Positions 52,069 through 57,960 of a stretch of 64,000 nucleotides of DNA are shown piece after piece; the stretch's first letter is position 1, and each line of letters starts with the position of its first letter. The notes beneath the pieces are model-generated. The model ran no database searches, was not told the origin of the DNA, and saw only the letters and a program-made list of their open reading frames with translations. Where the stretch lies: contig JAPWKC010000004.1 of assembly GCA_028283725.1 (NCBI GenBank), positions 1,550,001 to 1,614,000 of the forward strand, given 5' to 3'. The stretch is from Neorhizobium sp. GTDB lineage: Bacteria > Pseudomonadota > Alphaproteobacteria > Rhizobiales > Rhizobiaceae. A program made the translations under genes and the position numbers.

Positions 52069-53631
52069 ATGAGCACAATCGGCGCCTATCTGCGGCTTGT
52101 CCGCGTCGGCTGGGTCCTCGTGCGCGAGGGCGTGGTCTCCGACATGCCGACCGAAGGCCTTCCGGCCTTTGTCGGGCTGATGAAATCGATGATCCAGCCG
52201 TTTGCCAGCAAGAAGGCGCTGAAGCAGAAGCGCGCCGAGCGACTGGCGCGCGCCGTCGACCGGCTCGGGCCCTCCTATGTGAAGATCGGCCAGTTTCTGG
52301 CGACCCGCCCTGATGTCGTGGGCGTCGACTGGGCCGTCGATCTGGCGCTTCTGCAGGACCGCATGGCGTTCTTTCCGACGAATGCGGCCCGCAGCGCCAT
52401 CGAAGCCTCGCTCGGGCGCAAGGTGGACGAGCTCTATACGAATTTCGGCGAGCCGATTGCGGCGGCCTCGATCGCGCAGGTCCACCCTTGCGTCGTCAAC
52501 GACCGCAAGGTGGCGGTCAAGGTGGTGCGGCCCGGCGTGCGCCAGCGTTTCGCCAACGACATCGAGGGCCAGTATCTGCTCTCGCATCTGCAGGAGCGGT
52601 TCGTGCCGTCGAGCCGGCGCCTGAAGCCGGTTGAAGTCACCCGCACGCTCGAACAGACGACAAAGATGGAAATGGATCTGCGGCTGGAAGCCGCCGCCCT
52701 TTCCGAAATCGCCGAAAACACCAGAGACGACCCCGGCTTCCGTGTGCCGACCGTCGACTGGGAGCGCACCGGCCGCGACGTCATCACCATGGAGTGGATC
52801 GACGGCGTCAAGATGAACGATATAGAGGCCCTTCGCGCCGCCGGCCACAATCTGGAAAAGCTCGCCGAGACGCTGATCCAGTCTTTCCTGCGGCATACGC
52901 TGCGCGACGGCTTCTTCCATGCCGACATGCATCCGGGCAATCTCTTCGTCGATAGCAGCGGCACGATCGTCGCCGTCGACATGGGGATCGTCGGGCGGCT
53001 GGGAAAGAAGGAACGGCGGTTCCTTGCCGAAATCCTGTTCGGCTTCATCACCCGCGATTACCTGCGCGTCGCCGAAGTGCATTTCGAAGCCGGCTACGTG
53101 CCGGCCCATCACGACGTTTCCGCCTTTGCCCAGGCGATCCGCGCAATCGGCGAGCCGATCCACGGCCAGCCGGCCGAGACGATCTCGATGGCGCGCCTGC
53201 TGGCGCTGCTCTTCGAAGTCACCGATCTTTTCGAGATGCAGGCGCGGCCGGAACTTGTTCTTCTGCAAAAGACGATGGTCGTCGTCGAAGGCGTATCGCG
53301 CATGCTCGATCCGCGCTTCAACATGTGGAAGGCATCCGAACCGGTGGTTGCCGGGTGGATCAAGGACAATCTTGGGCCGAAGCGCATCGTGTCCGATTTG
53401 CGCGACAGCGTGAAGGCGGTCGTCAAGCTTGCCGAAGCCGCCCCCGAGATCGCCGCAAAGACGGAAAAATTCCATCACGACCTGATGCAGATGACCGAAA
53501 ACGGCCTGCGCTTCGATGCCGAGACCGCAGATGCCATCGGAAAATCCGAAGCCCGTCACAGCCGCTCCGGCCGCTGGGCGCTCTGGATCATCGCGCTCAC
53601 GCTGCTTTATATCGCCTATCTGATCACCTGA
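52069..53631 (+). CDS. ubiB: Ubiquinone biosynthesis atypical kinase UbiB
   Basis: The 520-residue ABC1/ADCK/UbiB protein has the family's KxGQ motif in YVKIGQFLATRPD, an Ala-rich loop GEPIAAASIAQVHPC, the invariant Lys in VAVKVVRPG, ExD in EMDLRLEAAAL, and the catalytic/metal region FFHADMHPGNLFV and AVDMGIVGRL. Two C-terminal hydrophobic stretches end in WALWIIALTLLYIAYLIT, a membrane anchor. It acts in the membrane Q-biosynthesis complex. Confidence 0.95.
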   Translation: MSTIGAYLRLVRVGWVLVREGVVSDMPTEGLPAFVGLMKSMIQPFASKKALKQKRAERLARAVDRLGPSYVKIGQFLATRPDVVGVDWAVDLALLQDRMAFFPTNAARSAIEASLGRKVDELYTNFGEPIAAASIAQVHPCVVNDRKVAVKVVRPGVRQRFANDIEGQYLLSHLQERFVPSSRRLKPVEVTRTLEQTTKMEMDLRLEAAALSEIAENTRDDPGFRVPTVDWERTGRDVITMEWIDGVKMNDIEALRAAGHNLEKLAETLIQSFLRHTLRDGFFHADMHPGNLFVDSSGTIVAVDMGIVGRLGKKERRFLAEILFGFITRDYLRVAEVHFEAGYVPAHHDVSAFAQAIRAIGEPIHGQPAETISMARLLALLFEVTDLFEMQARPELVLLQKTMVVVEGVSRMLDPRFNMWKASEPVVAGWIKDNLGPKRIVSDLRDSVKAVVKLAEAAPEIAAKTEKFHHDLMQMTENGLRFDAETADAIGKSEARHSRSGRWALWIIALTLLYIAYLIT

Positions 53632-53707: not shown

Positions 53708-55315
53708 ATGCCCCAAGATATGAGCCCGGACGACAGAAACCCGCAAGAGCAGATCCAGCAGGACAGGACGCCGATCGAACTTTCGGGACAGCCGATCGGC
53801 TTTGCCGAACTCTTTCTGATCGGGCGGGGAGAGGCCGCCGTGTCGGCCGATCCCGATGGTCTTCAACGGGTGCGTGCCGCCCGTGCCGTGGTGGAACAGG
53901 CGATTGCCGACGGCGAGCCAGTCTATGGCGCAACCACAGGCGTCGGCGCGATGAAGGATGTCGCGTGGTCGAGCGAAGATCTCGACGCCTTCAATCTCGG
54001 CCTCGTGCGCGCCCACCATTTCGGCACCGGCGACCCGTTTCCGCTCTCCGTCGTGCGCAATGCGATGGCGATGCGCGTCAATACGGCGCTGACGGGTTAT
54101 GTCGGCTGCTCGACCGAACTGGTGCAGGCCTATCTCGACCTTCTTTCCGCCGATCTCATTCCCGTGGTGCGACGCACCGGCTCGATCGGCTGTGCCGATA
54201 TCGGCCTGATGGGACAGATCGGTGCCGTCTTGACCGGCGTCGGCGAAGCCGTCTACCGGGGCGAGCGCCTGCCCGCCGCCGAGGCCTTCGAGAAAGCGGG
54301 CCTCAAACCCAGCCGCATGGCGCCGCGCGACAGCCTTGCCTCGCTCAGCGTCAATTCGGTGAGCTTTGCGGCGGCGGCCGAAGCGACGCGGGATGCGGCG
54401 GCGGCCCTGCGCACGCTGCTTGCAACGGGACTTGCCGCGTCTGGCGCGATGGGCGCCTCGCGCGATCCGTGGATCGCCGTCACCCATGTGGGCACGCCGC
54501 GCGAGGCGATGATCGGCAAATGGCTCTGCACGGCATCCGAGGGATGGGACTGGCCGACGGGCACGCATGTACAGGACCCGCTCAGCCTGCGCATGGTCGC
54601 GCAGGTCTTCGGTGCCGTCTTCGAAAGCGTGCTGACGGCCGGCCACAAGGTGCTGGCCGCCACCGGCCGCAGCGACGACAATCCGGTGGTTGCCGATGGC
54701 CGGGTGCTGACGTCGGGTGGATCTCTTCCGCTCGACGTGACCGTGCTTCTGGAATCGGCCTCGCTTTGCATGGCGCATGCGGCGCGCAACGCGTTCAACC
54801 GCTGCGTTCTTCTGGGCAACGGCCAGCGGCGCAACCTGCCGGTCAATCTGGTGCCGGAAGGGGCGATCGCCACCGGTTTCGGGCCGATCATCAAGCTGGC
54901 CGGCGAGATCTTTTCCCGCGTCCTGTCGATGACCAATCCCGTCTCCGCCCAATCGCTTGTCGTTGCCGGCGGGATGGAGGACGAGGCCGCCTTCCTGCCG
55001 CTCGTCATCGAGCGTTTCGACCGGCAGACGCGGGCGCTGAAGCGGCTGGCGGCGCTCGAAGCGCTGCTTGCGGCGCAGGCGATGGATATCCATGGCGATC
55101 AACCCGGTGGGGCCGTGAAGCTCGTCTATGACGTGGTGCGCCGGCATGCGACATTCTACCGGGTCGACCGGCCACTTTCCGCCGAGGTGGAGGCGATCGA
55201 GGACGAGCTTGCCTCCGACGCGTTTCTCACCGACCTGATCGCGCTGTCGCCGATCCACGCGATCGACGGGTTTTTCGCACTCGGCGGGCTCGGCATGCAG
55301 GGCGTTGCCCGCTGA
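53708..55315 (+). CDS. Aromatic amino acid lyase-like (HAL/PAL superfamily) protein with altered MIO site
   Basis: The 535-residue protein has the superfamily fold and several conserved stretches: VYGATTGVGAMKD (the loop tyrosine at about 73), QDPLSLRMVAQVFG and SDDNPVV. The MIO-forming sequence normally reads GSxGASGDLxPL; here it reads GSIGCADIGLMGQIG, with Cys162-Ala163-Asp164 in place of Ala-Ser-Gly, so the usual electrophilic prosthetic group should not form. Function is therefore uncertain. The ATG at 53708, with GAGGA nearby, is chosen over 53657. It follows ubiB by 76 bases. Confidence 0.8.
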   Translation: MPQDMSPDDRNPQEQIQQDRTPIELSGQPIGFAELFLIGRGEAAVSADPDGLQRVRAARAVVEQAIADGEPVYGATTGVGAMKDVAWSSEDLDAFNLGLVRAHHFGTGDPFPLSVVRNAMAMRVNTALTGYVGCSTELVQAYLDLLSADLIPVVRRTGSIGCADIGLMGQIGAVLTGVGEAVYRGERLPAAEAFEKAGLKPSRMAPRDSLASLSVNSVSFAAAAEATRDAAAALRTLLATGLAASGAMGASRDPWIAVTHVGTPREAMIGKWLCTASEGWDWPTGTHVQDPLSLRMVAQVFGAVFESVLTAGHKVLAATGRSDDNPVVADGRVLTSGGSLPLDVTVLLESASLCMAHAARNAFNRCVLLGNGQRRNLPVNLVPEGAIATGFGPIIKLAGEIFSRVLSMTNPVSAQSLVVAGGMEDEAAFLPLVIERFDRQTRALKRLAALEALLAAQAMDIHGDQPGGAVKLVYDVVRRHATFYRVDRPLSAEVEAIEDELASDAFLTDLIALSPIHAIDGFFALGGLGMQGVAR

Positions 55316-55462
55316 AACGCGCGAATGTGGGGGCGTAAAGGCCCGATTGATCGCTCCGCGTGGCAAAGGCCACCGCGCAACCTTCGGTCGGCCTTCATTC
55401 CGCTGTATTTTCATCTACCGTTAAGGAATTCATTCCTGCAACGTCGATCATCCGGAGAGTTC

Positions 55463-56983
55463 ATGGCGCTTGGGGCTTCGCAACGCTTATCTGACGGCAT
55501 TGCCGCCGTCGAAACCATGACGCGTTTCGCGCTCGCCGTTCTGGCGCTCGCCTCCGGCGTCTATACGTATCTCGGGGCACGCACGATCCTCGACGGATCG
55601 CCGACGGCGGTGTTCTTTGCGGCGATCATCTATTCGGCTTCGGTCTCGGTCGGCATCTACGCCTTCTGGTCCTATATGGCGCGCTTCTTTCCGCATGTGA
55701 CGACGCGGACCGGGCGCGGCGCGATGCTGGCCGTGATGGCCTGCGGGGCGGCGATGATCATCGCCATGTCGAGCTGGCTGAATGCGGCAGCGCTTGCCGG
55801 TTCGGCCGCCGTCGAGCAGCATCTGTCGGAAACCGTCGAAGGATACACGCAGGACCTCGACCGGGCACACCAGAACGCGCTTTCGGCCCAGGGCCTGCTG
55901 CCGGATATCCAGCGTGCCGGCCAGCGCTTTGCCGAGCTTGCCGGCGTCGAGCGGCAATCCGGCGCACTCACCGGCACGACCGGGTCGGGCAGCGTCGTGC
56001 AGCTTCTGAGCCAGATGTCGGCGCAGATGAAAGATCTCGAAAAGAGTATCAACGCCTCGCGCGAAACGACGGACGACCTGTTCCAGCAGGGCCAGAAACG
56101 GCTTGCGGCGATGCGCACGCTGATCAGCGCGCCAGGCGCGATCGAGCCGCGTGCCGACCAGTTTTCGAGCGAAGCCGTGGCCCTGACCGGGATCATGACC
56201 TCGCTTGCCCAGACCTCCGTCGCTCCCTCGATCCGCCGGGCAGCGGACGATCTGTCCGCCGGTTTCATCGCACCGGTTCCCGATGGCGCAGCGCCCGATC
56301 TCGTCAACCGGCAAAACCAGGTGATGGACACGGTACGCACCTCGGTTGCCGCGCAATCGAAGGCGCTGGCAAGGGCCGCAGACGACATTCTCTCGCGTCC
56401 GCCGGTTGCCGAACGGCGCTTCGTGCCGCTATCGCCGGCCGCCGCCGTTCTGCACTACGCGGCCGATTTCATTCCCGCCTGGGCGGGCGCCATCTCCATC
56501 GACCTTCTACCGGGTGTCATGGTCTTCATTCTGGCCGTCGTGCATGCGGCCATCCGCAGGCAGGACGAGAAATTGCCGTTTGCCGACCGGATCACTGCCG
56601 GCGAATTGCTGAGAGCGCTCGAGGTGCAGCGGGCGATTGCCGCGAATGGCCTGACGGTCGAACAGGCTGCGGCCATTCAGGCCGAGACGAGCGCCGGGGC
56701 AAGGGCGATTGCCGACAGCGAAGCGCAGCGACAGGTGGCCGAAGACACGGCTCTCGCGGAGCTTCGACGCGAAGACACCGGCGGGCAGAATGCCGATCAC
56801 CACCAGCCGCATGATCTCCGGGCCGGTCGTCTGGAGGGTGATGGCGGCAGCGGCGCCGCCAACACCCATGTCGACGAGGCAACCGACCACAACGCCTCCG
56901 GCGACAGGCTTCAGGACGAACCGAACAACATCACCAGTCTCGACCGGAAATCCCGCCGGGATCGCTCGCACGAGGACCGCTGA
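55463..56983 (+). CDS. Membrane protein with periplasmic helical domain, unknown function
   Basis: The 506-residue protein has three hydrophobic segments near residues 19-40, 50-72 and 94-115, a long helical Ala/Gln/Ser-rich region (about 118-335, including MSAQMKDLEKSINASRETTD, likely coiled coil), another hydrophobic segment near 355-385 (FIPAWAGAISIDLLPGVMVF) and a hydrophilic C-terminal tail rich in Asp, His and Arg. I do not recognise a family. The ATG at 55463, with GGAGAG upstream, is chosen. Its TGA overlaps the start of the ClpP-like gene (TGATG), so the two are coupled. Confidence 0.75.
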   Translation: MALGASQRLSDGIAAVETMTRFALAVLALASGVYTYLGARTILDGSPTAVFFAAIIYSASVSVGIYAFWSYMARFFPHVTTRTGRGAMLAVMACGAAMIIAMSSWLNAAALAGSAAVEQHLSETVEGYTQDLDRAHQNALSAQGLLPDIQRAGQRFAELAGVERQSGALTGTTGSGSVVQLLSQMSAQMKDLEKSINASRETTDDLFQQGQKRLAAMRTLISAPGAIEPRADQFSSEAVALTGIMTSLAQTSVAPSIRRAADDLSAGFIAPVPDGAAPDLVNRQNQVMDTVRTSVAAQSKALARAADDILSRPPVAERRFVPLSPAAAVLHYAADFIPAWAGAISIDLLPGVMVFILAVVHAAIRRQDEKLPFADRITAGELLRALEVQRAIAANGLTVEQAAAIQAETSAGARAIADSEAQRQVAEDTALAELRREDTGGQNADHHQPHDLRAGRLEGDGGSGAANTHVDEATDHNASGDRLQDEPNNITSLDRKSRRDRSHEDR

Positions 56984-57960
56984 TGGGCGAGGCTTTTGGC
57001 GCACGGCAGGCGGATGGGCCGAGAGCAGCGGCGAGCCGTGGGGCGATGCCCGTCGTCAGCCCGGTGGTGCAGAAAGAAGAGCGGCGCTCACTCATCCGCC
57101 GGCTGGCGGCAATCGACGACGGCCAGATCATGCGGGTGGCCTTCTATGCGCTTCTGTCGGCCGCCGTCGTCTTCATCGGGCTCGACATGCGCGAGATGAT
57201 CACCCGCAACGACGGGCTGCCCGCCTATGATCCGCTGCATGGCGACCCCGCCATCCTGCCGCCGGCTCTGACCAGAGGCGTGCCCGATCAGCCGCCGATC
57301 GATCCGGCGACAAAGCCCGACGTGCTGCGTCAGCCGATCCGCTTCACGCTGGAAAAAGGCGGCGTGATGAAGGCCGAGGGAGCGATCGATCCCGGTGCCG
57401 CCGACAGGTTCAAGGCCGAGCTCGACCAGCGCGGCGAATATGTGAAGACGATCTCGCTCGACAGTCCCGGCGGCTCCGTCAGCGACGCGATCGCGATGTC
57501 GGCGCTGATCCGCGAGCGGAAGCTCGACACGATCGTGGCCACGCGGGCGCTCTGCGCCTCCTCCTGCCCGATCATCTTGTCCGGTGGCGTCAAACGGGTG
57601 GCGCAGAAGGATGCGATCATCGGCGTGCATCAGGTGTTCAGCGGCGGCGGGCCTCTCCCGAGCGCCGCCGAGGCGATGTCATCGGCCCAGACGACGACGG
57701 CGAGGATCGCCCGGCATCTCGACCTGATGGGGATCGCACCCGGCCTGTGGCTGAAGGCACTGGAAACGCCACCCGACCGGCTCTCCTATCTCACGGCGAA
57801 GGATATGGCGGATTTCCGGCTGACGACGCCTGTCGCGGCCACGACACCGGCACCTTTACCGACATCAGGTCAGGCGCCTGCCGGTGCTGCGGCGCCTGCC
57901 GCTCAGCCCGCCCCCGCGGCAAAGCCGGCCGTGGCTGCGCCCGTCCGGCGTAACGGCTGA
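56983..57960 (+). CDS. Membrane-anchored ClpP/crotonase-like protein (COG3904-like)
   Basis: The 325-residue protein has one membrane helix (residues 51-67), a Pro-rich stalk and a ClpP-fold domain (about 118-285): SLDSPGGSVSDAIAMSALI (residues 158-176), the nucleophile-region CASSCP (191-196) and GVHQVF with His216, which line up with the Ser and His of ClpP/SppA-type proteases. A Pro/Ala-rich tail follows. It is probably periplasmic. The substrate is unknown. The gene overlaps the preceding membrane gene and converges with the MFS gene. Confidence 0.8.
   Translation: MGEAFGARQADGPRAAASRGAMPVVSPVVQKEERRSLIRRLAAIDDGQIMRVAFYALLSAAVVFIGLDMREMITRNDGLPAYDPLHGDPAILPPALTRGVPDQPPIDPATKPDVLRQPIRFTLEKGGVMKAEGAIDPGAADRFKAELDQRGEYVKTISLDSPGGSVSDAIAMSALIRERKLDTIVATRALCASSCPIILSGGVKRVAQKDAIIGVHQVFSGGGPLPSAAEAMSSAQTTTARIARHLDLMGIAPGLWLKALETPPDRLSYLTAKDMADFRLTTPVAATTPAPLPTSGQAPAGAAAPAAQPAPAAKPAVAAPVRRNG

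Follow-up and report, generated by a model that had tools for sequence, protein, structure and literature searches.

What reaction could a protein of the histidine/phenylalanine ammonia-lyase (HAL/PAL) fold catalyze without the electrophilic MIO group? The question is raised by an ORF of Neorhizobium sp., located in a stretch of 64,000 nucleotides analyzed here as a whole (the window), for which a preliminary description reported a HAL/PAL-superfamily protein with its MIO tripeptide replaced by Cys-Ala-Asp. The ORF is intact (positions 53708-55315, + strand, ATG start) and encodes a protein of 535 aa (P0001), characterized in this work as an ergothionase-like, MIO-less lyase of the HAL fold from the ORF, profile and PDB matches, alignment and tree. 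Membership in the superfamily was confirmed by the PF00221 (Lyase_aromatic) profile (score: 303 bits; gathering cut-off: 27.3); the score for the hutH equivalog TIGR01225 (221 bits; cut-off: 539) places P0001 outside the HutH family, and the NCBIfam scan of P0001 matched no dedicated model. The genome also encodes a separate canonical HAL with urocanase downstream, so the use of histidine does not need the MIO-less lyase.

The upstream neighbor, as already noted in the preliminary description, is ubiB (52069-53631, + strand, profile match), which holds this position in 79 of the 80 "named loci" (the best 80 of 280 relatives confirmed by a contig scan, hence the nearest ones), the exception, L078, being cut by the contig end. 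The lyase gene is followed by an uncharacterized gene (55325-56983, + strand; a listed ORF whose true start may be later), whose product has neither a Pfam nor an NCBIfam match, and by a gene encoding a weakly ClpP-like protein (56983-57960, + strand), for which a Pfam match is absent and the sole NCBIfam match, to a ClpP-like model, is weak and below the cut-off. Both these genes occur near the lyase site in 20/80 named loci (best 80 of 280). The promoter scan found 0 candidates, and the terminator scan found 2 (1.2 expected).

MIO arises from an Ala-Ser-Gly triad. P0001 reads GSIGCADIGLMGQIG, with the codons of the GSIGCAD stretch at 54179-54199 (+ strand). In the alignment with P. putida HAL (GSVG-ASG-D vs GSIG-CA-D), Ala142 corresponds to Cys162, Ser143 to a gap, Gly144 to Ala163 and Asp145 to Asp164; the position of the gap inside the loop is a choice of the alignment, but the loop is without Ser either way. 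Because the triad that serves as the source of MIO is absent, MIO cannot form in P0001. The preliminary description was therefore right about the loss of Ala-Ser-Gly, but the exchange is not three-for-three, since the loop is one residue shorter; the change is better put as "ASGD became CAD" than as "ASG replaced by CAD".

The preliminary description also suggested a search for a clade with conserved CAD-like triads. We searched 397 genomes of the order with the lyase and defined the clade by the 28 genomes with a match at E <1e-90. Ala-Ser-Gly is kept in none of these 28 rows, and the Cys proved variable (loops: 20 CAD, 5 AAD, 2 TGD, 1 TAD). The gap at Ser143 and the absence of Ala-Ser-Gly extend to 29/29 clade rows, and all 80 named loci (best 80 of 280) combine this gap with Cys at the Ala142 position. 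As the latter position varies within the clade, Cys is not a required residue. The possibility that Cys-Ala-Asp forms a new catalytic triad, or a unit of any kind, was rejected: its first residue varies (C, T or A within the clade; E in ergothionase), and its Asp is the ordinary conserved Asp145 of HAL.

The remaining active-site positions, all identified by alignment and encoded on the + strand, are well preserved. Tyr73 (53924-53926) corresponds to HAL Tyr53 and, by analogy with the role of the latter, is likely the catalytic base; His103 (54014-54016) corresponds to HAL His83; Arg295 (54590-54592) to HAL Arg283, which binds the carboxylate in HAL; and Glu424 (54977-54979) to HAL Glu414 and ergothionase Glu411. 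Lys396 (54893-54895) is kept in the rows with a shortened loop, whereas the 6 HAL rows have Val or Tyr. All five residues are retained in 29/29 clade rows and in 80/80 named loci (best 80 of 280), and they include Tyr, Arg and Glu, which take part in catalysis in HAL. Their conservation in the clade, together with the placement of the relatives' gene beside a catabolic pathway (see below), argues against the preliminary suggestion of a non-catalytic relative, while a chemistry and a substrate different from those of HAL, also proposed there, are most likely. The lyase is under purifying selection (dN/dS ~0.12, close to ~0.11 for ubiB); with the ORF intact, this led us to reject the pseudogene interpretation, in line with the earlier view that the gene is not decaying.

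A search of the PDB sequences reported the ergothionase from T. denticola (6s7j) as the best match of P0001 (E-value 7e-54; next match: 2e-41); the preliminary description had not connected P0001 with this member of the family. The ergothionase structures (6s7j, 6s7q) share the HAL fold and a MIO site one residue shorter, with ~25% identity to P0001 over the fold match for 6s7j. The 6s7j loop reads SSIG-EG-D, with Glu/Gly where P0001 has Cys/Ala, and both keep the Tyr, His, Arg, Lys and Glu. Ser214, Asn216, Leu292 and Lys396 are among the positions common to at least 26/28 clade rows and 6s7j and found in 0/5 HAL rows; the authors of 6s7j reportedly discuss a Lys and a Glu at the positions of Lys396 and Glu424. 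The position of HAL Phe329 is occupied by Phe in 6s7j but by Ser in the clade, hence the two pockets differ. HAL (1gkj and 1b8f from P. putida, and the HAL of the window's own genome, L001) has the fold, Tyr53, His83, Arg283, Glu414 and Asp145 in common with P0001, and differs from it in Ala-Ser-Gly, Asn195, Tyr or Phe280, and Val/Tyr at the Lys396 position.

The AlphaFold model of P0001 (mean pLDDT 73.5) confirmed the HAL fold, with several loops that carry active-site residues below 50. Foldseek searches with this model placed P. putida HAL (2e-23) just ahead of 6s7j (1.5e-22); the fold by itself does not tell ergothionase from HAL. A tree was calculated for 31 chosen rows, PAL and TAL not among them. 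Its 25 shortened-loop rows are set apart from the 6 HAL rows with the support of 100/100, and a branch with the support of 96/95 has on one side the clade, 6s7j and a relative from Polaromonas (L254). An exclusive group of the clade and 6s7j was rejected (p-AU 0.002), since L254 is the partner of 6s7j; support exists for the group of all three. P0001 combines the HAL/PAL fold and the absence of the MIO triad with 6s7j as its nearest relative by sequence among solved proteins, as expected for an ergothionase.

Analyses of genomic context revealed what this lyase is associated with in relatives. In Rhizobium johnstonii 3841 (L113) it is followed by genes for an amidohydrolase, an M20 hydrolase, an S-Me-THD-like protein, a TfoX_N-like protein and a urocanase-like protein. 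Four of the products exceed the cut-offs of NCBIfam models for ert (ergothioneine-utilization) genes (NF058530, NF058529, NF058538, NF058540): thiourocanate hydratase (score: 1061; cut-off: 930), thiohydantoin desulfurase (602; 440), hydantoin-5-propionate amidohydrolase ErtD (776; 600) and N-carbamyl-L-glutamate amidohydrolase ErtE (636; 520). The hydratase is above the cut-off of hutU as well (695 >375), and the ErtE-like protein scores higher with a generic Zn-hydrolase model (850 >486). Judging by these models, the genes following the lyase in R. johnstonii encode a putative ergothioneine-to-glutamate pathway. The S-methylergothioneine route was considered for this operon and rejected, as the hydratase and the desulfurase remain below the cut-offs of the S-methyl models NF058531/NF058532 (737 <880 and 283 <450). 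The same gene run contains the small TfoX_N-domain protein (L113:15352-15681).

By similarity, ert genes follow the lyase in most named loci (best 80 of 280), unlike in the window, where they are not next to it. A relative of the hydratase is encoded in the same locus in 63/80 named loci (best 80 of 280), is absent from 16, and in the remaining one (L097) the locus is cut by the contig end. Additionally, a gene of a betaine-type ABC importer, identified as a relative of the L045 binding protein, typed OpuAC/OsmF, lies near the lyase in 15 of the 16 clade loci that belong to other families of the order.

The association with the desulfurase persists at the level of whole genomes. In the order sample (397 genomes) the lyase is present in 28, the desulfurase scores over the cut-off in 31, and 25 have both; thus, the desulfurase occurs in 25/28 genomes with the lyase vs 6/369 without it (Fisher 8e-31, ignoring shared ancestry). 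The lyase alone was found in the window's genome, G182 and G119, and the desulfurase alone in G207, G226, G236, G294, G355 and G367, of which G367 has a partial match to the lyase at 35%; stretches of 6-20 kb around the desulfurase of these six genomes (L255-L260) contain no lyase. In the genus sample (57 genomes, overlapping those of the named loci) the desulfurase accompanies the lyase in 21/26 genomes and is found in 0/31 without it (Fisher 3e-11, again ignoring shared ancestry). Among the five genomes of this sample with the lyase and without the desulfurase over the cut-off, the latter is in pieces in G454 and G462 and does not exceed the cut-off in G000, G458 and G460.

The isolated position of the lyase is not peculiar to the window: it stands alone after ubiB in the window and in 16/80 named loci (best 80 of 280), and in 15 of these 16 it is followed by the same two downstream genes as in the window (L053 is without them). 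Five relatives (L064, L066, L069, L072, L073) carry ert genes between the lyase and those two genes, so that the lone state is most simply explained by the loss of genes from this interval; in L064 and L066 it additionally contains an MFS gene, and in L064 and L069 ErtD was not detected in it. Elsewhere in the 16 lone-lyase genomes the hydratase exceeds the cut-off in 14 and the desulfurase in 13, with two more desulfurases in pieces; the L065 genome (G408) has neither over the cut-off. The corresponding second loci (L213-L227; 15 stretches of 19 kb each) include no lyase (0/15); a search for ErtD detected it in 9 of them and not in 6. A sixteenth stretch (L228) encodes a canonical HAL together with a urocanase that scores below the cut-off. 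In a tree that left out rows shorter than 450 aa (L045, L046), 14 hydratases of the second loci group together (100/100), separately from 11 hydratases of the ubiB loci. The picture is that of a split pathway, with the old lyase kept and the remaining steps supplied by another copy. The lone copies are as constrained as the operonic ones (median dN/dS 0.124 for 11 loci vs 0.150 for 14 loci; ubiB in the same comparison: 0.107 and 0.121, respectively). In the nearest record, Shinella sp. UYSO24 (as named; 93%, among the best 80 of 280 relatives), the hydratase and desulfurase genes are broken into several frames (L213:7881-10598), which may reflect decay or an assembly error.

The absence of the MIO triad, the conserved residues, the relation to 6s7j, the neighborhood in relatives and the co-occurrence are matters of observation, and from them we infer that P0001 is an ergothionase, i.e. 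a MIO-independent trimethylamine-lyase of the HAL/PAL fold acting on ergothioneine, with a probability of roughly 0.85. The substrate, the chemistry and the roles of individual residues, as we infer them, would be the following. The α-trimethylammonium of the antioxidant ergothioneine would already be a good leaving group, and hence the electrophilic MIO would not be needed to activate the amine. Arg295 would hold the carboxylate, as its counterpart does in HAL, Tyr73 would take the β-proton while the thioimidazole ring stabilizes the charge, and trimethylamine would leave with the formation of thiourocanate; we speculate that Lys396 and Glu424 interact with the thioimidazole or with the leaving group. 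In the relatives thiourocanate would then be converted to glutamate by the successive action of thiourocanate hydratase, thiohydantoin desulfurase, ErtD and ErtE. An ergothionase without MIO is already known (PMC13405746 describes ergothionase as lacking MIO, citing Maurer et al. 2019), and P0001 represents a well-supported Rhizobiales branch of this kind of enzyme. If so, a kind of gene annotated as aromatic amino acid ammonia-lyase moves to the first step of rhizobial ergothioneine degradation.

Other interpretations have to be weighed against the same data. The PF00221 match, the HAL fold and the annotation of two plasmid homologues as "aromatic amino acid ammonia-lyase" would agree with an ordinary histidine or aromatic ammonia-lyase in which MIO is formed elsewhere, or with a non-catalytic relative, but we regard both as extremely improbable: Ala-Ser-Gly is lost and the gap at Ser143 present throughout the 29 clade rows, the hutH score is less than half of the cut-off (221 vs 539 bits), a canonical HAL, with urocanase downstream of it, is encoded separately in the genome, and the catalytic residues are conserved. 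It is also rather improbable, yet less so, that the enzyme is MIO-less and uses the same chemistry on a related betaine, such as hercynine, S-methylergothioneine, ergothioneine sulfonate or another N-trimethyl aromatic amino acid. The pocket unlike that of 6s7j at the HAL Phe329 position and the existence of lone copies would fit such a substrate. On the other hand, the hydantoin steps would be unnecessary for the sulfonate or hercynine routes, and in R. johnstonii the partners exceed the cut-offs of the thiourocanate and thiohydantoin models and stay below the S-methyl ones (737 <880, 283 <450). A bacterial ergothioneine-sulfonate pathway, which would favor the sulfonate, is cited for Agrobacterium radiobacter in PMC13405746.

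The interpretation as an ergothionase leaves room for a different fate of the enzyme in this particular strain and in some other lone-lyase genomes, where it could have a private role (e.g. merely freeing trimethylamine) or be the remnant of a lost pathway, either of which is compatible with an ancestral ergothionase. Thiourocanate-processing genes are linked to the lyase in relatives, but the window's genome has no match over the cut-off in any of the three families searched (thiourocanate hydratase, desulfurase, ErtE); the fragmentary partners in Shinella sp. UYSO24 (as named), the L065 genome (G408) with neither hydratase nor desulfurase over the cut-off, and the six of 15 second loci in which ErtD was not detected point in the same direction. 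We consider this scenario unlikely, since the assembly of the window's genome is incomplete (78%), the lone copies are under no weaker constraint than the operonic ones (0.124 for 11 loci vs 0.150 for 14), and most of the 16 lone-lyase genomes encode the hydratase (14/16) and the desulfurase (13/16) over the cut-off elsewhere.

Beyond what is known of ergothionase, the Lys that is absent from HAL is common to diverse relatives whose loops are shortened to the same extent. From a longer list of weaker matches in the order sample we examined 22 (~28-34% identity). The loop is one residue short in 18 of them (PF00221 rows L031, L032, L164-L167, L169-L179 and L181; loops AAD, AGD, EAD, MAD and ASD) and canonical in L180 and L182; L183, too short for counting, and L168, taken out of the counts, make up the rest. 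The ergothionase Lys is kept in 18/18 of the shortened-loop rows as well as in 6s7j and L254, as opposed to Val/Tyr in the 6 HAL rows, and 15/18 have Arg at the HAL His83 position. The weakest case is L181, as its A-S-D loop still holds Ser. Eleven of these other-lineage rows were included in the alignment used for the shared residues, and all of them in the larger conservation alignment. ORF calling at 15 shortened-loop loci revealed no one neighborhood common to them, and the proteins L254, L261 and L265 exceeded no NCBIfam cut-off. It is conceivable, at somewhat less than even odds, that a broad half of the HAL/PAL superfamily does without MIO and that ergothionase is a single branch of it. 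The other lineages would be quaternary-ammonium (betaine) lyases whose substrates bring along a good leaving group in place of the cofactor, with the Lys as the marker of this change. We also propose a simple sequence test, a MIO loop one residue short together with the Lys, to separate presumed MIO-free from MIO lyases; it may point to further presumed MIO-free lyases and help to trace the turnover of trimethylamine and ergothioneine in soil and root bacteria.

As to the distribution of the clade, a phylum sample (398 genomes) yielded 5 matches at E <1e-60, all within the family of the window, and in the denser order sample (397 genomes) the clade lyase occurs in other families too. Two plasmids carry homologues. 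On the 750-kb plasmid of Rhizobium sp. SL42 (L253) the lyase lies beside four ert-type genes, with a globin gene after them, and the annotations read only ammonia-lyase, amidohydrolase, Zn-dependent hydrolase, DUF917 and urocanate hydratase. Plasmid 1 of Polaromonas sp. JS666 (L254) encodes the shortened-loop relative grouped in the tree as the partner of 6s7j; its loop reads GSVGAADI, and its gene adjoins an ornithine cyclodeaminase-family gene and genes for two substrate-binding proteins, between IS elements.
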